Source of the DNA: Nitrospirota bacterium
GTDB taxonomy: Bacteria; Nitrospirota; Thermodesulfovibrionia; Thermodesulfovibrionales; UBA6898
DNA: 46,713 bases
Direction of reading: 5' to 3'
NCBI GenBank assembly: GCA_021811105.1
Contig: JAJZPM010000028.1
Coordinates: 1-46,713, forward strand
The notes under the pieces are model-generated. The model worked only from the letters and a program-made list of their open reading frames with translations, did no database searches and was not told the origin of the DNA. Position 1 is the stretch's first letter. Each line of letters starts with the position of its first letter. A program made the translations under genes and the position numbers. Positions 23,571-46,590 of the stretch are shown here, piece by piece.

Positions 23571-24294
23571 GTGGAGGCAGTATTGAAGCGTATCCGAAAG
23601 ATTAAGCCTATGAGGGATGAAGAAAAGCGGCTCAGGTACCTTTCAATTGAAGAGTGCCCTATCCTGGTAAGCGCATGCGAGCACCACCTTCAACCTATAG
23701 TAATTACGGCACTCAATACCGGCATGCGGCGAGGAGAAATATTCGGGCTCAAATGGACCAATGTGGATCTGAAAAATGGTTTTATCCTCCTGAATAAGAC
23801 AAAAAACGGAGAGCGCCGGGAAATCCCTATCAACAACACACAAAAAAGAGTGCTGCAGCGCTTGACCAGAAGGCTCGATATTCCCCATGTCTTTTTTAAT
23901 CAGGATACAGGAAAACCCTATCAGGACATCAAGCGGGCATTTGCTGCTGCAAAGAAGAGAGTAGAGACCCTGAAATGCCCGGATTGTGACTACAGAAAGC
24001 CAAGGCTGAAAACCGAAGATGAAGCAGGCACCTGTCCGAAGTGCGAGGCGAAGTTGGCGGTCTTTAAAGGCATCGAAGATTTTCATTTTCACGATCTGAG
24101 ACATACTTTCGCGTCTCACTGCATAATGGCCGGAGTCGACATAACCACTCTATCCAAGCTTCTGGGACATAAGAGCCTAAAAATTGACCCTCAGATATGC
24201 ACACCTCGCACCGTCCCACCTGGTAAAGGCAATAGACGTCCTGGATAAAGCGATCAATAAAAAAATGAGTAGCACAAAATTAGCACAAAATTAG
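23571..24294 (+). pseudogene. Tyrosine recombinase (phage-type integrase) relic with a zinc-ribbon insertion
   Basis: Only the catalytic half remains: LSIEECPILVSAC, ITALNTGMRRGEIFGLKW (first catalytic Arg), HDLRHTFASH (His-x-x-Arg) and LLGHKSLK. The N-terminal arm-binding and core-binding domains are missing; the frame begins at a GTG with a stop just upstream. After LLGHKSLK the frame is lost by a one-base shift near 24180-24187. In the next frame the sequence continues MTLRYAHLAPSHLVKAIDVL to a TAG at 24292, restoring the catalytic Tyr. An unusual insertion, CPDC ... CPKC at about residues 135-160, looks like a zinc ribbon between the two halves of the catalytic domain. Gene end, terminator and att repeat follow directly, the normal order for an integrase beside its attachment site. 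Confidence 0.85.
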
Positions 24295-24346: not shown

Positions 24347-24545
24347 ATGGTAGGCCCGGGCGGTTTCGAACCGCCGACCTCTACCGTGTCAAAGCAATTT
24401 CATTAATTTTCGTAAGTGGGCCTTTTACCTGCATTTTATGACTTTTGCTTTACTTTTCAAGGCGTTTCGCCGTTCCGTCCTTTCCGATATTTTCCGCCAT
24501 TTTATGCCCTTTAAGATATTTTTGGCTACATTTTGGTTACAGTGG
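24347..24545. repeat. Copy 1 of a 199-bp direct repeat containing a tRNA-Val 3' half (att scar)
   Basis: Collinear without gaps with 30922-31120, with about 15 mismatches by eye, none within the tRNA part. Minus-strand positions 24392 to 24348 read TTGACACGGTAGAGGTC, then a T-arm GGCGG-TTCGAAA-CCGCC, then CGGGCCT-A-CCA. That is the anticodon loop (anticodon GAC, Val), variable region, T arm, acceptor strand and encoded CCA of a tRNA, without its 5' half. Loss of tRNA identity at the anticodon loop is the hallmark of integration by a tyrosine recombinase. The integrase relic lies immediately to the left. Confidence 0.8.
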
Positions 24546-30921: not shown

Positions 30922-31120
30922 ATGGTAGGCCCGGGCGGTTTCGAACCGCCGACCTCTACCGTGTCAAGGCGATTTGATTAATTTTCGTAAGTGGGCCTTT
31001 TACCTGCATTTTATGACTTTTGCTTTATCTTGCAAGGAGTTTTGCCGTTCCATCCTTTATGGTATTTTCCGTCATTTTATGCCCTTTAGGATATTTTTGG
31101 CTACATTTTGGTTACAGTGA
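30922..31120. repeat. Copy 2 of the 199-bp direct repeat with the tRNA-Val 3' half
   Basis: Partner of 24347-24545, same orientation. The 45-nt tRNA 3' half (30923-30967, minus strand) is identical between copies, and the rest differs at about 15 positions without gaps. The two copies bracket 6.4 kb holding the FN3, phospholipase-like and MazEF genes. The interval 30604-30921 otherwise holds only the left copy of the second att-like repeat and no gene; 31121-31192 is also empty. Confidence 0.8.
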
Positions 31121-31192
31121 CCACAAGTAAGGTGCCTTTTAACTTTATCAAAGGAAATATGATTTACTGAGGCTTTCTCTTCCCGAGGCATG

Positions 31193-32257
31193 CTATTTTC
31201 CGAAAGGACAGACCGGATATCTGCACTCTCCGCATTTAATACAAAGCCCGCCATGGCCGAGCTCTGCAAGCTCCTTACGACCCACCTTATCACCGGCAAG
31301 GACCCTCGGAAGAACAAGATCGAAGATAGTGTTCTTTGCGTACATGCCGCAAGCCGGTATGCCCAGGACAGGGATTGCGCCAAGATGGGCTGCCAGGAAC
31401 ATCGCGCCCGGCAAAACTGCCGAGCCATAAGTGATATCAGAAGCTCCAAGATTTCGAATCGCAAACCTTGTCACGTCATCAGGATCGACAGACATGCCGC
31501 CGGTGGTGATAAGCAGATCTGCTCCGGCGTTTATCAATTCCCTCAGCCTGTCCTCGATGAATGTTTCATCATCCGGGGCATAATAGGTGCCGACGATCTC
31601 ACCTCCAATAGCCTCTATTTTGGCCTTGATAATTGGCGCGAAGGCGTCTTTTATCCTGCCGTAGTAGACTTCACTACCTGTGATGACCACACCTGCCTTA
31701 GGTCTTCTGATCTCTCTGACCTCAATGATCTTCCCGGCCTGCTCGCCGATCTTCACTGCTGCCTGAACAACATCCTTCTTGACGATCAATGGAATTGCCC
31801 TCGTGCCTGCGACAGTCTGACCTTTTTTCACAACCGTGTTGCTGTGGATCGTCGCACACATGACATCACCAAGCAAATTAAATTCGAGAAGGGCATCTTT
31901 ATTTATCTTAAGCAGGCCTTCCCTGTCGGCAATGATATTTATCTTTCCTTCCTTCGGCTCTCCCTTTATCTTCACGCCCTCACCCATGAGTGCTTTTGCC
32001 AGGGCATAAGCAGCGTCGTTCTCGTGCATCTCATCATCCGCCATATTCAGTACAAAGAGATGCTCCTTCCCGAGCCTCCGCAGGTGGCAGACATCCTCTT
32101 CCCTAATAATATGTCCTTTCTTGAATGCTCGCCCTTTAAACTCTCAGGGCCGTATCTCTGTTATGTCGTGGGCAAGGACAGTGCCAACGGCCTCTGTTAC
32201 CGAAATTGATTTCCTGTCAATCTTTTTCTGCGTATTGGAACTTTGAAGATCGCACAT
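31193..32257 (-). pseudogene. Molybdopterin-binding (MoeA/MogA-like) protein interrupted by an in-frame TGA
   Basis: From the ATG at 32257 the frame encodes ISVTEAVGTVLAHDITEIRP, a TGA (32144-32146), then EFKGRAFKKGHIIREEDV and 300 further residues without a shift. Relatives have Gly at the TGA position (P-G-E-F-K-G), so GGA to TGA is the simplest event. Downstream are the linking beta domain, the MoCF_biosynth fold (AGVVITGSEVYYGRIKDAF, LLITTGGMSVDPDDVT, GIPACGMYAKNTIFD) and a C-terminal CIKCGECRYPVCPFGK cysteine cluster. It may have helped load or sense the Mo cofactor. Restart at the ATG at 32044 would give a 283-residue form without the first domain part, but I see no well-placed Shine-Dalgarno there. 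It is the last gene of the Mo operon. An assembly error cannot be excluded. Confidence 0.8.
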
Positions 32258-32266
32258 ATTCCTCTC

Positions 32267-33406
32267 CTAAACCCGTATAGTATTTTTCATGGCCATCAAG
32301 CTATAGTGGATAACTAATCCAAGGAGAAAACCGATAGTAAGGTTATTTGTCCAGAAACCCATAACAGCAACCGTCATTGCTACAAATACCGCTTTCCTGT
32401 CATCCAGAATGTCTTTCATAAACAGCGAATGCTGTATTCCCACATAACAGAGCAAAATCCCCAAAATACCCGAAGGAAAGGCAGAGACAACGGACAGGGC
32501 CGAATGACCGAACATCAGGGCAATAAGGATCAGAACGATAGCCATTATATAGCCCGATCTTTCGCTTGATGCCCCAAACTTGCAGTGTGCAGTCAGTCCC
32601 CCGCAACCGTGGCACATGGGAGCGCCGCCAACAATGCCTGATGCAATGTTCGCTATGCCCATGCTTATGGGAATACTCTGCAGGTTGAGCCTGCCCGCTT
32701 TTTCTCCATAGAGCAGTCTGCCGGTTTCACTTGTCGCTACAACGGCGTTGCCGAACGTCAAAGCGATCTGCGGCAGAACAAGGATAATGAAGCCTGTCCA
32801 AAGGGTGTTCAAATCGGGAACAGCTGGCGTCAAGGCAACAGGACCGAATACCGCAAACGTTGCGCCCTTGATGGAAAGCACTGTACCGAGGACGAGGAGG
32901 GGAATAAGCGGCGGGATTTCTTTCAGCACGGTCATGCTTACAAGGAGAAGGGCGGCGGCGAGGATTGCTACAACAATGTCCGGGCTCATAAGGCCGAAGG
33001 AAGTCCTCACAAGCATGGCACCCAAGCCCAGTTGAATTCCACGTATCACGGACACGGGGAATATTTTTCCGAGCCAAGCGCTCAATCCGGTGACGGCAAT
33101 AAAAATCAGGAAAATTCCCATCACGATGCCGGCGGCGTTGATCACTTCATAGCCCATGCCTGTCGCAATCGCTATTGCCGCCATAGCTTTCAAGGGCTGA
33201 ACAGGCATTGTTATCCTGAAATACCAGGCAGAAGCCGCATAGAATATGCCTGCCATTAAGAATAACGCCGTCGGATTAAAATGATTTTTCGCAATCAGGG
33301 CAACGGCAAGGGGAAACAGAACGCCGATATCGCCGAAGGCGCCTGAGACATCCCATAAAAAAGTCCTTAAACTACCCGAAGTTTTCCCTGAATCGTTCAT
33401 CAACAA
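32267..33406 (-). CDS. MOT1-type molybdate (sulfate/molybdate) transporter
   Basis: 379 residues with about ten membrane helices. DVSGAFGDIGVLFPLAVALI is the first MFS_MOT1 signature and GGAPMCHGCGGLTAHCKFGA the second (P-M-C-H-G-x-G-G-L). MPVQPLKAMAAIAIATGMG is also conserved. The family (related to SulP without a STAS domain) imports molybdate with high affinity in plants and bacteria. The position beside the ModE-like regulator, FmdE and Moco genes supports molybdate over sulfate. The start overlaps the end of the ModE-like gene by 35 bp; a second Met two codons in is an alternative start. Confidence 0.88.
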   Translation of the reverse strand: MLMNDSGKTSGSLRTFLWDVSGAFGDIGVLFPLAVALIAKNHFNPTALFLMAGIFYAASAWYFRITMPVQPLKAMAAIAIATGMGYEVINAAGIVMGIFLIFIAVTGLSAWLGKIFPVSVIRGIQLGLGAMLVRTSFGLMSPDIVVAILAAALLLVSMTVLKEIPPLIPLLVLGTVLSIKGATFAVFGPVALTPAVPDLNTLWTGFIILVLPQIALTFGNAVVATSETGRLLYGEKAGRLNLQSIPISMGIANIASGIVGGAPMCHGCGGLTAHCKFGASSERSGYIMAIVLILIALMFGHSALSVVSAFPSGILGILLCYVGIQHSLFMKDILDDRKAVFVAMTVAVMGFWTNNLTIGFLLGLVIHYSLMAMKNTIRV

Positions 33407-33704
33407 TCTCTCTTATCCCTTGTTCCATCGCATCGTACTTCCTCAGAAATTCCCTTGCATTGTCAGTGAGCGCAGCACCGCCGCCGTTCTTGCCGCCGGT
33501 CTGCCGCTCAATAAGCTTGAATCCAAGCCTCTCTTCCATGGCTTTTATATAGCCCCAAGCCTTTCTGTAGGAGATATTGATCTCCTTTGCAGCGTGGTTT
33601 ATCGAACCATATCTGTCTATGGCCTCAAGCAGAAAGCTCCTTCCCCTGCCGAAGACCGGTTTCCCTTCAACTTCGATCCATATTTTGGATTTAATCTCCA
33701 TCAT
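33372..33704 (-). CDS. ModE-like winged-helix regulator (DNA-binding domain only)
   Basis: About 110 residues. KSKIWIEVEGKPVFGRGRSFLLEAIDRYGSINHAAKEINISYRKAWGYIKAMEERLG is written here in part: GRGRSFLLEAIDRYGSI, then INHAAKEINISYRKAWGYIK, the ModE/LysR-type helix-turn-helix, and the wing KLIERQTGGKNGGGAALT. The C-terminal molybdate-binding (TOBE/DiMop) domains of full ModE are absent, so any metal sensing would need another input. The frame is open to 33815, but the ATG near 33704 (MMEIKSK) has AAAGGAG just upstream and matches family starts. It probably regulates the Mo genes around it. Confidence 0.85.
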   Translation of the reverse strand: MMEIKSKIWIEVEGKPVFGRGRSFLLEAIDRYGSINHAAKEINISYRKAWGYIKAMEERLGFKLIERQTGGKNGGGAALTDNAREFLRKYDAMEQGIREIVDERFRENFG

Positions 33705-33744
33705 TGCTCCTTTCTCCGTTATGGAATATCTGCATAACGCGGGC

Positions 33745-34368
33745 TCAAAAAATAGCCTGCCCGGCAGGCTCATAATATCCGGCATCTGCACAGGGTCTGC
33801 ACAGGATTCTCCCATCCCTTTGAATCTCCCGCATGTCCTGAACGTATTCGCCGCAAGAGTCGCATTGAATTCTCTGAAGAGGTCTTCCGGGCATATCCTC
33901 GGGATTCAGTTTCACCCGTACCTCCATCACGTCAAAGAGGGCCTCGTCGGACATTATCTTGTATGCCTCAAGCTGCGCTGCATACTTATTGCCGATCTCC
34001 GGAAAAAGCTCTTTTGCCGCCTGACGTGACTCCTCCTTCGCAATGACCCTCACTGCTTTACCTGTCTTGAGGTTGACAAAGGTCGCGGCCATCTTCCCGT
34101 AGTCCATGAATTTCATGGTCCTATGGCCGAGACTGCAGCCGGTGACAGACTGAACCGCATCTGTCGCGCACCGGTCCATTTCGACAAAGACTATAATACT
34201 CTTTCTGTCTTTGCCTTTCGGATCTTCAATACCGATTTCCTTAAGCCCGAGCATGGACATCTTCACGCCGAGCACTTGGCCGGGGCAAAGGTGGCCATGG
34301 ATCTTCGCTGACTCTTCAAGCAGAATGTCAAAATCGAGTAACTGAACCAAATTGGCTTCTTTAATCAT
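33745..34368 (-). CDS. FmdE-family protein with a C-terminal zinc ribbon
   Basis: 207 residues. The FmdE domain opens with AKIHGHLCPGQVLGVKMSML (H-G-H-x-C-P-G signature), then VFVEMDRCATDAVQSVTGCS and HRTMKFMDYGKMAATFVN. A C-terminal ribbon CDSCGEYV ... CRPC (about residues 170-195) binds zinc. Although named after formylmethanofuran dehydrogenase subunit E, such proteins are common in non-methanogens beside molybdenum or tungsten enzymes. Their exact role is uncertain: cofactor delivery or sulfuration is proposed for relatives. No methanofuran genes are present here. It is encoded between torD and the ModE-like gene. Confidence 0.87.
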   Translation of the reverse strand: MIKEANLVQLLDFDILLEESAKIHGHLCPGQVLGVKMSMLGLKEIGIEDPKGKDRKSIIVFVEMDRCATDAVQSVTGCSLGHRTMKFMDYGKMAATFVNLKTGKAVRVIAKEESRQAAKELFPEIGNKYAAQLEAYKIMSDEALFDVMEVRVKLNPEDMPGRPLQRIQCDSCGEYVQDMREIQRDGRILCRPCADAGYYEPAGQAIF

Positions 34369-34402: not shown

Positions 34403-34999
34403 TCACACCCCTATTAAATCCAGCAACTTCCTCGTTGTCCTCGCTAAGGTCTTGTAAAACAGCATGTCCGACGCGTCTTCCATATCACGAGCAAATTGAG
34501 GGACCCACTGCAAGAGATGCTCATTTACCAACCTCTCTGCCAAATTAATGTAATGAGCTTCGTTTTCGCCCTCCTCATGCATGCCATGAAACAGCAGCGC
34601 AAGAAAGTTCAGTTCCGCCCCGATGTGATCAGGCATTACGCCGGGATCGTCGACCGCCAGCCCCAGCTCGTCATAGATCCTTCTCACCTCATCGGCCGAC
34701 TCCTGCATCATCAGCCTTTTCGGCGACACATAAACAGATTCCCACGGAGGACAGGGCAGCTTATACGGCCCGATAAAGAGCCGGGTGTATTCCCATATAA
34801 GGCTTTCAACCTCTTCCTCTGATTCTGCATTGATTCCTTCAAGGACAGCTTTTATATCCCGGAGGAAAATCGAGCTGTCCTCGGCAACTAACGTTTTCCA
34901 GTTGTAAATTGCCTCTTTCGAGGGCTCGCATAAATACATGCTGCTCAAAAGACTACAGATCTCCATTAGTCCGCTATTTGCATTCATAATGGCAGTCAC
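34403..34999 (-). CDS. TorD/DmsD-family chaperone for the molybdoenzyme
   Basis: 198 residues, all helical. Family features include LIWEYTRLFIGPYKLPCPPWESVYVSPKRL split as EYTRLFIGPYKLPCPPWES and VYVSPKRLMMQESADEVRRIY, and the D-H-I-G-A-E-L-x-F motif in PDHIGAELNFLALLF. Such chaperones hold the Tat signal and the apo form of the Mo subunit until cofactor is inserted. A GTG start at 34999 overlaps the TGA of a 7-codon leader frame (34996-35019) that carries the only good Shine-Dalgarno (GGAGG); an ATG four codons further (34987) is an alternative. A strong hairpin precedes it. Confidence 0.88.
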   Translation of the reverse strand: MTAIMNANSGLMEICSLLSSMYLCEPSKEAIYNWKTLVAEDSSIFLRDIKAVLEGINAESEEEVESLIWEYTRLFIGPYKLPCPPWESVYVSPKRLMMQESADEVRRIYDELGLAVDDPGVMPDHIGAELNFLALLFHGMHEEGENEAHYINLAERLVNEHLLQWVPQFARDMEDASDMLFYKTLARTTRKLLDLIGV

Positions 35000-35096: not shown

Positions 35097-35687
35097 CTAT
35101 TTCTTTATGTTCTTCGCGGGAACAAACCTCACCGATGGTATTGTCAATTTCGGGTCCGCGAAATGCGGCAGCCTGTCCACAACCGCGCTTTTGAACGCCG
35201 GATCGGGAAAGGCATTGCCTGCTTCCACATCCGGGAGTTTGCCGTTGGAAAGCGCATAGCCCATACAAGTCCTCACACACGCAGGCGGAAGCCCGACCTT
35301 CAGTCTGTGGATGCAGAAGGTGCACTTGTCCATCTTTTTCTTCTTCTCGTCAAAAGTGGGAGCACCGTACGGACAGGCGGCAGCACACCGTTTGCAGCCT
35401 ATGCATTTTCCCTGGTCGATGAGCACGGCGCCGAACTCCGGCTCCTTGGTTATAGCCCCGGACGGGCAGGCCTTCATGCAAGCCGGTTCTTCGCAGTGGT
35501 TGCAGGCAGAAGAAATATACCTCGCCTTAACGTCGGGATATCTTCCTTCTTCCTCTATGATGACCCTCCTTCGCCTTACTCCTACGGGAAGGTCGAATTC
35601 CTGTTTGCAGCCGGCCTCGCAGGCCCTGCAAGCTATGCAGTTATCTTCATTAAAAAGCCATGCCATCTGATTCGGGTTCTTTGCCAT
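35097..35687 (-). CDS. Four-cluster ferredoxin (DmsB/PhsB-like) electron-transfer subunit
   Basis: 196 residues with sixteen-Cys pattern in four groups: CIACRACEAGC near residue 17, CNHCEEPACMKAC near 62, CIGCKRCAAACP near 94 and CTFCIHRL ... CVRTC near 121-140. This is the DMSO-reductase-family B subunit that wires the Mo subunit to its redox partner. There is no signal peptide, so it would be co-exported with the Tat-signal catalytic subunit encoded 12 bp upstream. No NrfD/DmsC membrane subunit follows, so electrons must pass through another carrier, for which the triheme cytochrome is a candidate. Confidence 0.93.
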   Translation of the reverse strand: MAKNPNQMAWLFNEDNCIACRACEAGCKQEFDLPVGVRRRRVIIEEEGRYPDVKARYISSACNHCEEPACMKACPSGAITKEPEFGAVLIDQGKCIGCKRCAAACPYGAPTFDEKKKKMDKCTFCIHRLKVGLPPACVRTCMGYALSNGKLPDVEAGNAFPDPAFKSAVVDRLPHFADPKLTIPSVRFVPAKNIKK

Positions 35688-35699
35688 ATCTCTCGCCTC

Positions 35700-38030
35700 C
35701 TAAGCCTTTATAATCCTGACGCCGATTTCTTTGTGGACAGCCATGCCCGAAGTCTTTTCAGAAACACCCGCAAGGAATTGACCATCACCTGTGCCTGCCG
35801 GCGACCACCGGTTGATCTTATTCAGAGAGCCCCGCGCAATCTTCCCGAATCCCCAGTGCCCATATCCGTGATGAAGTGCAACAACCTCAGGATGTATTCT
35901 TTCGGTAACCTGTACAGTCGCCTTTCCTTTTGCATACGGTGACTCAATCCAGATGGCATCACCGTCCTTGAGTCCGAGTCGCGCTGCCGTAGTCGCATTC
36001 ATAAGAAGCGGATTGTCCCGCTTCATCTCCATCAGCCAGTCGTTGTTGAATGTCCTCGAATGGGTGTGTTCCGCCTGCTTGTAATTGACGAGATAAAGAG
36101 GAAATTCCGTCGTTGGTTTATAGATAGGCTCCACATAATCAGGCAAGGGATTCAACCCCTTCTTCTCCATCTGCTCCGAGTAAAACTCAATTTTCTTAGA
36201 AGGTGTTGCAAAGCCGTTTTTCTTGTATTTTTCGTAATTCGTTTCGCCACCGATAAATACGCCGCCCGGAAGCGCCATCATCTCATTCAGCGTTTTGCCG
36301 ATGGGGCCGTTCTTGAGCTGATCGGATATGTATTCCGGATAGGTGTCGGGAAGAGTCTTCCCGTCCTTGTCCTTCAGGCCCATCTTTTTGGCAAGTGCGA
36401 GGATGAACTCCTGCTCCGTCATCCCGTTTATCACCGATTTTACCGCCGGCCGTCTTATGGCCGTGGCAGGGAATGTCACCCAGTTCACGTTCACTTCCCA
36501 CCGTTCAAGATAGTGGCTCCCAGGAATGACAATATCTGCCAGTTCAGCCGTTTCGCTCATCATGGTATCGAGGACTGCGATATATTCGAGCTTCTTTATC
36601 GCCTCTATATTCTTTTTCGTGTTCGGGACCGACATCACAAAGTTCTGGAACATAAAGACGCCTGCCCTGAGCTGGTAAGGCTTCCCCGAGATCATTGCGT
36701 CCCGCGTTTCGGTGTAAATCCCGGATACATGCGCAAAAGGATACTTTGTCCCGAGGCCGTCAATCCTCGCCGCCTTAGGCTTATCGACATTGAAAGCCCT
36801 TCTCTTGCCACCCATAGCCTGCCTGCTCATCATATTTCCGGGCTTGTCGTACTGACCGAGCAAGGCAGGAAGCATCGCTATCGCCCTTCCACCGTCCGTT
36901 GCGTTGGTGTGATGTCCAGGCCCGCTCCATGTGTCTACGACAACAGGTTTCGTCGATGCGAGTTCCTTCGCTATCCTTTTTGTTGTCTCTGCGGGAACAG
37001 AGGTTATCTTCTCGGCCCATTCGGGAGTTTTATCCTTGACGAGGTCTGCGTATTTATCGAATCCCACAGTGTAATTCTTTATGAAGTCCTCATCGTACCA
37101 TTTGTTCTTCACGATCTCATGTCCCAGTGCAAGCGCGAAGGCGCCGTCTGTACCGGGTCTGATCGGGATCCATTCATCCGCCTTTGCAGCGGTCTGATTA
37201 TAGAAGGGGTCGACATAGACCATCTTAGCGCCCTTTGCCCTGCCCAGATTCCAGATGCCCGGAAGGTGTGCCCACTTCGTAGCGGCAAGCAGATTCCATC
37301 CGAATACGAGGGCGTATTTCGTATTCGCGAAGTCCGGCAGAGGCCTGTCATCGCCCATCACGAGCTTGAAGGACGCCTTTCTCGCAACATCACAGGTATT
37401 TGAATGCATCGAGTAATTCGGCGAGCCGTAGAGGAGGTTGAAGTCTCCCTGCATGTCAGTAAACGATGAATCTTCGGTGCACCAGAACATCGCTTCAGGG
37501 CCGTATTTCTCCCTTATGCGCGACAGATTCTTTGCCACATCGTCAAGGGCCTCTTCCCAGGAAATGGCCTTCCATTTTCCCGAGCCTCTTTCGCCCACTC
37601 GTTTCATCGGCTTTTTCAGCCTGTCGGGGTCATAGAGGGCCCTTGTTCCGGAGTTGCCTTTTGCGCACATCCTGCCGCCCAGCGGCTTGTATTTGGCATA
37701 ATCGGTGGAGATATTCGCCACGCCGATCGGGTTGTATTCACTGGGCTCGATCTTTACGACCCTGCCGTCTACGACATGGACCTTTATGCCTGACGTCCCA
37801 CCGCACATCTGGCATGTCGTATAAATCCACTCGCCCTTTCCGGCCATCTTTTCCTCTGCGCTGGCCTCTCTGAAAAGGCCGAACTTGTCGTCCCAGAGGA
37901 GACCGCTTGCAACTGCTGCCCCTGCAAGGGCGGAAGTCCATTTCAGGAATGACCGCCTTGTGAACTGTTTCCCGGTAGCGCTCTCAAACAGATCCTTTTC
38001 TTCTTTGGTTATTTCTTTCTTTTCGCTCAT
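35700..38030 (-). CDS. Tat-exported molybdopterin oxidoreductase, catalytic subunit (DMSO reductase family)
   Basis: 776 residues. The twin-arginine signal TRRSFLKW lies at 24-31, with a hydrophobic stretch TSALAGAAVASGLL. A [4Fe-4S] region YTTCQMCGGTSGIKVHVVDG (Cys73, Cys76, Ser80) and GRMCAKGNSG (Cys122) follows: the usual third cysteine is Ser. SMHSNTCDVARKASF places Cys213 as the likely Mo ligand, as in Psr/Phs/Nap types. Cofactor-binding stretches are FGWNLLAATKWAH, VYVDPFYNQTAAKADEWIPI, RPGTDGAFALALGH and the C-terminal molydop_binding domain (LMNATTAARLGLKDGDAIWI). Length and the B-subunit type fit polysulfide/thiosulfate reductase-like and arsenic oxyanion enzymes; the substrate is unknown. 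It is encoded after a triheme cytochrome and before its ferredoxin and chaperone, downstream of a sigma-54 promoter. Confidence 0.92.
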   Translation of the reverse strand: MSEKKEITKEEKDLFESATGKQFTRRSFLKWTSALAGAAVASGLLWDDKFGLFREASAEEKMAGKGEWIYTTCQMCGGTSGIKVHVVDGRVVKIEPSEYNPIGVANISTDYAKYKPLGGRMCAKGNSGTRALYDPDRLKKPMKRVGERGSGKWKAISWEEALDDVAKNLSRIREKYGPEAMFWCTEDSSFTDMQGDFNLLYGSPNYSMHSNTCDVARKASFKLVMGDDRPLPDFANTKYALVFGWNLLAATKWAHLPGIWNLGRAKGAKMVYVDPFYNQTAAKADEWIPIRPGTDGAFALALGHEIVKNKWYDEDFIKNYTVGFDKYADLVKDKTPEWAEKITSVPAETTKRIAKELASTKPVVVDTWSGPGHHTNATDGGRAIAMLPALLGQYDKPGNMMSRQAMGGKRRAFNVDKPKAARIDGLGTKYPFAHVSGIYTETRDAMISGKPYQLRAGVFMFQNFVMSVPNTKKNIEAIKKLEYIAVLDTMMSETAELADIVIPGSHYLERWEVNVNWVTFPATAIRRPAVKSVINGMTEQEFILALAKKMGLKDKDGKTLPDTYPEYISDQLKNGPIGKTLNEMMALPGGVFIGGETNYEKYKKNGFATPSKKIEFYSEQMEKKGLNPLPDYVEPIYKPTTEFPLYLVNYKQAEHTHSRTFNNDWLMEMKRDNPLLMNATTAARLGLKDGDAIWIESPYAKGKATVQVTERIHPEVVALHHGYGHWGFGKIARGSLNKINRWSPAGTGDGQFLAGVSEKTSGMAVHKEIGVRIIKA

Positions 38031-46510: not shown

Positions 46511-46590
46511 GACCTCTACCGTAAAACGGTAGCGCCTCTATTACCTACTTTTTTCAAATCCTAGATTTATCAATGTGCTAAGAGGCCTAA
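46511..46590. repeat. Right copy of the att-like repeat bracketing the molybdenum module
   Basis: Begins GACCTCTACCGTAAAACGGT and continues AGC, then a tail with CAAATCCTAGATTTATCAATG, matching 30737-30813 in the same orientation. On the minus strand it reads GGTAATAGAGGCGCTACC then GTTTTAC then GGTAGAGGTC, which resembles the D-stem end plus anticodon arm of a tRNA. The remaining 120 bp of the window show no recognisable gene. Confidence 0.6.

Follow-up and report, generated by a model that had tools for sequence, protein, structure and literature searches.

Bacterial selenoprotein genes combine an in-frame UGA with a SECIS hairpin. In the part of the Sargasso Sea survey that concerns such genes, at least two Cys-containing homologues were required together with a hairpin, and single sequences were regarded as candidates only, given possible sequencing error (PMC1088965). 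UGA can also be read by a tRNA-Trp(CCA) with an anticodon stem of 4 bp, as stated in a section of another report (PMC13092985). A third system for comparison is the redundant bacterial gene that has been turned into a pseudogene by a nonsense mutation. Here we describe an in-frame TGA in a gene for a molybdopterin-binding protein located on a 46,713-nucleotide stretch of DNA of a Nitrospirota bacterium (contig JAJZPM010000028.1, positions 1-46,713, hereafter the window). We favour, with some reserve, the explanation that this TGA arose by an ordinary and recent nonsense change of a single base in one member of a pair of paralogous genes. The features of the locus are given in Table 1.

Table 1. 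Interrupted gene, related signals and upstream neighbours (positions in the window)
Feature	Position	Strand	Remarks
Molybdopterin-binding protein gene	31193..32257	-	ATG at 32257, frame end at 31193; 354 codons + stop, interrupted once; MoeA/MogA-like, PF00994, C-terminal Cys cluster
In-frame TGA	32144..32146	-	Codon 38 of the gene in the row above (read 32146 to 32144)
Longest ATG-started frame past the TGA	31193..32044	-	283 aa; whole MoCF_biosynth domain kept; possible but poor restart
Probable ribosome-binding site, purine-rich AGGAGAGGA	32260..32268	-	Just before ATG 32257, by eye
MOT1-type molybdate transporter	32267..33406	-	Adjoins the interrupted gene, upstream
ModE-like regulator	33372..33815	-	
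FmdE family protein with zinc finger	33745..34368	-	
TorD/DmsD-type chaperone	34403..34999	-	
DmsB-like 4Fe-4S subunit	35097..35687	-	
PhsA/DmsA-like molybdopterin oxidoreductase	35700..38030	-	Without in-frame UGA

The residues LAHDITEIRP end at the TGA and EFKGRAFKKGH follows it in the same frame. The genome from which the window comes is a draft of 3.94 Mb in 93 contigs (completeness 100, contamination 2.63), and its search with the read-through protein returned a single match that spans residues 1-354 and contains '1 TGA'. The initial annotation had described the frame as continuous and of the same family on either side of the stop, with an intact C-terminal Cys cluster, and both statements were borne out: the two sides align over their full length to one family (45 sequences aligned), the 951 bases from the TGA to the natural stop remain open, as they did in none of 20000 base shuffles of the stretch, and cysteines 339, 342, 345 and 350 are invariant in the 45 aligned sequences. 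The protein belongs to the MoCF_biosynth family (PF00994), with 74.4 bits against a curated Pfam cut-off of 26.6, and the closest structural matches of its AlphaFold model (mean pLDDT of 82.9) are MoeA, gephyrin E and Cnx1E, followed by CinA and MoaB. The locus carries what defines a pseudogene by nonsense, namely a premature stop without counterpart in relatives in a frame that is otherwise homologous. On the opposite strand, a 339-codon open frame (31190-32209, plus strand) runs antisense to the gene. At least two stops interrupt it in 10 of 12 sequences (eleven relatives and the paralogue described below), with one stop in L015 and none in L018, and long open runs of 231-352 codons occur in L014, L016, L015, L018 and the paralogue. 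As it is not consistently open in the compared relatives, it was rejected as a gene and is probably a by-product of codon usage.

The residue expected at codon 38 was examined among relatives, comprising the best 80 of 184 matches from a genome scan together with the same-genus loci. The titles of the best 80 are nearly all Nitrospirae, Nitrospirota, Nitrospiraceae, Nitrospira, Thermodesulfovibrio or similar, the exceptions including 'uncultured bacterium', a Deferribacteres bacterium and 'Bacterium BMS3Bbin08'. From 89 matched loci, 88 rows span column 38, and removal of duplicates left 82 distinct sequences, the window included: Gly occupies the column in 51, Asp in 18, Asn in 7, Glu in 4 and Ser in 1, and the one stop is that of the window, none of the other 81 distinct relatives in this set having a stop within the match. 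The claim that relatives carry Gly was thus only partly right, because the column varies; it holds for those 51 sequences and for the six closest relatives among the matches listed (GGA in three, GGT in two and GGC in one), but not for those with Asp, Asn, Glu or Ser. In the structural model, strands 32-34 and 42-45 flank a loop that contains residue 38, and alignment and model together describe a variable loop at this site.

The interrupted gene is the final gene of a same-strand cluster that extends from the oxidoreductase through the MOT1 transporter, and we infer that this cluster is a molybdenum operon. Gene neighbourhoods were compared at fourteen loci, nine of which are near relatives (L013-L019, L021 and L022; L008 is on the same contig as L014). 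An FmdE gene lies upstream in all nine near relatives and a ModE gene in eight of them, L022 having no match, while MOT1 is upstream in one (L016). The L052 neighbourhood has FmdE and lacks ModE, and no FmdE, ModE or MOT1-type neighbours were seen at L011, at L058 or on the contig of the paralogue (L115). This paralogue is a second copy in the same genome, on contig C67; it is intact, has 375 codons with Asn at column 38, and lies near a 382-codon frame that reads by eye as a MobB-MobA fusion. Its identity to the interrupted gene is 74% and 82% in the two pieces of the genome search and 70% over the full length. Searching the five genomes of the genus (E up to 1e-20), the other four of which are other species, gave nine matches, one of them (in G003) truncated at a contig end, and only the match in the window contained a stop. 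The orthologue occurs in the same gene setting in G001 and G002, and G002 has both copies; G003 (66% complete) and G004 (94%) have the paralogue type only, as judged by identity and by the Asn at the site. It is as if the cluster-type copy were dispensable, considering that G004, at this completeness, keeps the paralogue type only. The intact paralogue presumably covers the role of the interrupted gene, although its contig could be another organism's if the assembly was binned (contamination of 2.63%).

Evidence on when the gene was last under constraint came from substitution rates. Pairwise omega (Nei-Gojobori, own script) ranged from 0.076 to 0.118 in five pairs that include the window and from 0.040 to 0.090 in thirteen pairs that do not, the highest value of all (0.118) being that of the window with L015; three more pairs, all with L019 and one of them with the window, were undefined by saturation. 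Three-taxon estimates of omega for the window branch were 0.082 (95% interval of 0.050-0.129) and 0.065 (0.037-0.118), and those of five other branches were 0.054-0.106, with 95% intervals that overlap those of the window. If the other branches set the baseline, the neutral share of the window branch is estimated at roughly 6% at most. When the window is compared with L013, its unique residues are roughly double in number with three outgroups (28/14 with L014, 26/14 with L018 and 26/12 with L015) and similar in number with two others (18/18 with L016 and 18/20 with L019). In a tree of 13 proteins, the end branch of the window is 0.13 long, within the range of 0.063-0.23 of the near relatives, and the window falls in a group of nine rows without resolved order; the branch of L013 is unusually short (0.063), which in our reading accounts for the roughly twofold excess. 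These comparisons indicate that the window branch has evolved under ordinary purifying selection, so that any loss of the gene would be recent. The dating is coarse, because dS between the near relatives (about 1.0-3.0, with three pairs undefined) approaches or exceeds saturation. The suggestion of the initial annotation that the lesion is recent agrees with this selection and with the absence of a second lesion.

The same annotation had also proposed that the stop might be read through, and here the results were unfavourable. Selenocysteine was one candidate: the organism has the machinery that a bacterial selenoprotein needs, with SelB on contig C37 (the only one over the cut-off) and a tRNA-Sec with anticodon UCA on contig C78, and it has four formate-dehydrogenase-like genes on contigs C8, C41, C30 and C45 (L107, L108, L113 and L114), each with one in-frame TGA in the context AR[LI]-UGA-HS, as expected of selenocysteine. 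These four genes served as positive controls from the same genome for hairpin folding over 42 or 54 nt from the UGA. Over 54 nt, the folding energy of the window was far weaker (-3.5 kcal/mol vs -16.7, -19.0, -21.8 and -22.6 kcal/mol), but shuffle z-scores did not separate it (-0.96) from the controls (-0.19, -0.04, -0.50 and -2.00); the energy gap mostly reflects base composition and does not, on its own, amount to a test of selenocysteine. By eye, three of the four controls show an apical loop of GGUCU type when folded at one of the two lengths; in the only hairpin predicted for the window, the UGA itself is paired within the stem and a GGUCU-like loop is lacking. What mainly decided the matter was the site itself, since Cys occurs at column 38 in none of the 81 other distinct relatives (best 80 of 184 plus same-genus loci), and we consider a selenocysteine codon here extremely unlikely. 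Reassignment of UGA to Trp or Gly was likewise rejected: prfB (RF2) is present over the cut-off, none of the 43 tRNA places examined with ARAGORN has a UCA anticodon, the sole UCA anticodon found being that of tRNA-Sec, and few in-frame UGAs were recognised in the 446.7 kb of the genome that were scanned. A useful amount of full-length protein might still arise through ordinary leakage at the UGA or through some unrecognised change in a tRNA, if the tolerant loop took any inserted residue. The variety of residues at the site, its position between two strands in the model and the selection on the frame up to the dating limit are consistent with such leakage. RF2 and the tRNA set speak against it too, as does the tRNA-Trp(CCA), which has an anticodon stem of 5 bp (TCGGA/TCCGA) and, by our numbering, no G24A-type change; moreover, UGA followed by G is not known as a leaky context. 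On balance, leaky read-through is unlikely, and more speculative still, indeed decidedly improbable, is the idea that this selenocysteine-using bacterium tolerates and slightly uses UGA at a permissive loop, read-through keeping the gene alive as a small, dose-controlled supply of a molybdenum-handling protein. A further tRNA of the genome deserves mention, a selC-like tRNA at C10:25953-26043 (L094) that matches RF01852 with 62.2 bits. It was discarded as a second UGA-reading tRNA, as ARAGORN reports a tRNA-Cys of 95 nt with anticodon GCA; by eye, it has a U before the CCA, and a near frame reads as YedF (selenium-related). In shape, it agrees with the selC*-type tRNA-Cys that part of a published account reports for Nitrospirae among others (PMC7609411).

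A one-base error of the assembly consensus would look identical to a nonsense change, and the same applies to a minor strain variant, the gene being intact in the population in both cases. The draft state of the genome (93 contigs), the isolation of a single lesion in the 1065 nt of the gene with purifying selection on either side, and the absence of the stop from all other relatives listed are in keeping with such an error. Nevertheless, no long homopolymer lies at the TGA, and a scan of the genome speaks against an error as well. This hexamer scan of limited sensitivity for same-frame stops, covering 446.7 kb of the genome, gave 43 candidates, among them the TGA of the window and the selenocysteine codon of the formate-dehydrogenase-like gene on C41. 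Seven of the other 41, those read because their next start is at least 15 codons away, look like separate proteins or non-coding sequence, and one of the remaining 34 candidates, at C41:68928, is not followed by a start codon. The two recognised in-frame UGAs inside conserved genes in these 446.7 kb are thus that of the window and the selenocysteine codon, the only other placed same-frame stop in a conserved gene, and, as far as this limited scan with its seven candidates read can tell, the lesion is isolated. We regard a consensus error or strain variant as possible, though rather doubtful, and the base as probably real. Translation might also restart at the ATG at 32044, giving a working product of 283 residues that would retain the entire PF00994 domain and the Cys cluster. 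Against this, no well-spaced Shine-Dalgarno sequence was seen by eye for this ATG, the nearest purine-rich stretch being about 18 nt upstream. Met is found there in 2 of 22 alignment rows other than that of the window (one in two of the 45 sequences) and in L022, so that this is no conserved start. The N-terminal segment would be lost with D31, T33, E34, K41, G42, A44 and G48, all invariant in the 45-sequence alignment, and a functional restart is thus very unlikely.

Under the nonsense change that we favour, ribosomes would start at 32257 and RF2 would terminate translation at the UGA of codon 38, leaving a 37-residue peptide. The interrupted copy would then most likely be non-functional and its role would presumably pass to the intact paralogue. 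Since the gene is the last of its same-strand cluster, no co-transcribed gene after it would suffer.

The flank of the gene opposite to the molybdenum cluster contains a different kind of feature. A perfect 45-bp direct repeat occurs at 24348-24392 and 30923-30967 of the window and is identical to the 3' end of tRNA-Val(GAC), of which an intact gene is found on contig C26. The repeats bound a 6.6-kb stretch that encodes a protein with fn3/PKD domains, proteins of 683 aa and 236 aa and a MazEF pair, and a phage-type integrase (PF00589, 225-codon frame) is located just outside them, at 23571-24248. The stretch is probably a tRNA-targeting integrated element or the remnant of one, and it ends about 225 bp from the interrupted gene. 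The sequence surrounding the tRNA-Val remnant recurs in further incomplete copies, 83-91% identical and scattered in the genome, at 46511-46590 of the window (minus strand), at C85:45473-45595 and at C34:209090-209156.

On its own, the lesion has little significance. It offers a clean example of why an in-frame UGA in a selenoprotein-bearing genome is not to be taken for selenocysteine when there is no Cys-bearing relative, and of how an intact paralogue can account for a lesion of this kind. Provided that the base is real, a conserved cluster of molybdenum genes is losing a gene copy here. Compared with described systems, the protein shares the MoCF_biosynth domain with the MoeA and MogA-MoaB family (PF00994) and differs from it in the extra C-terminal Cys cluster, in that no MoeA N-terminal family was reported towards its N-terminus with E of 0.001 or less, and in the whole-query TM-score of its structural matches, about 0.3. 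With bacterial selenoprotein genes it has in common the in-frame UGA in a selenocysteine-using organism, but neither a Cys-containing relative at the site nor a hairpin resembling those of the four controls. From nonsense-mutated redundant genes it differs in nothing notable, the copy having no further decay yet; the likeness lies in the single stop in an otherwise intact frame, the intact paralogue in the same genome and selection that appears to have been ordinary until recently.
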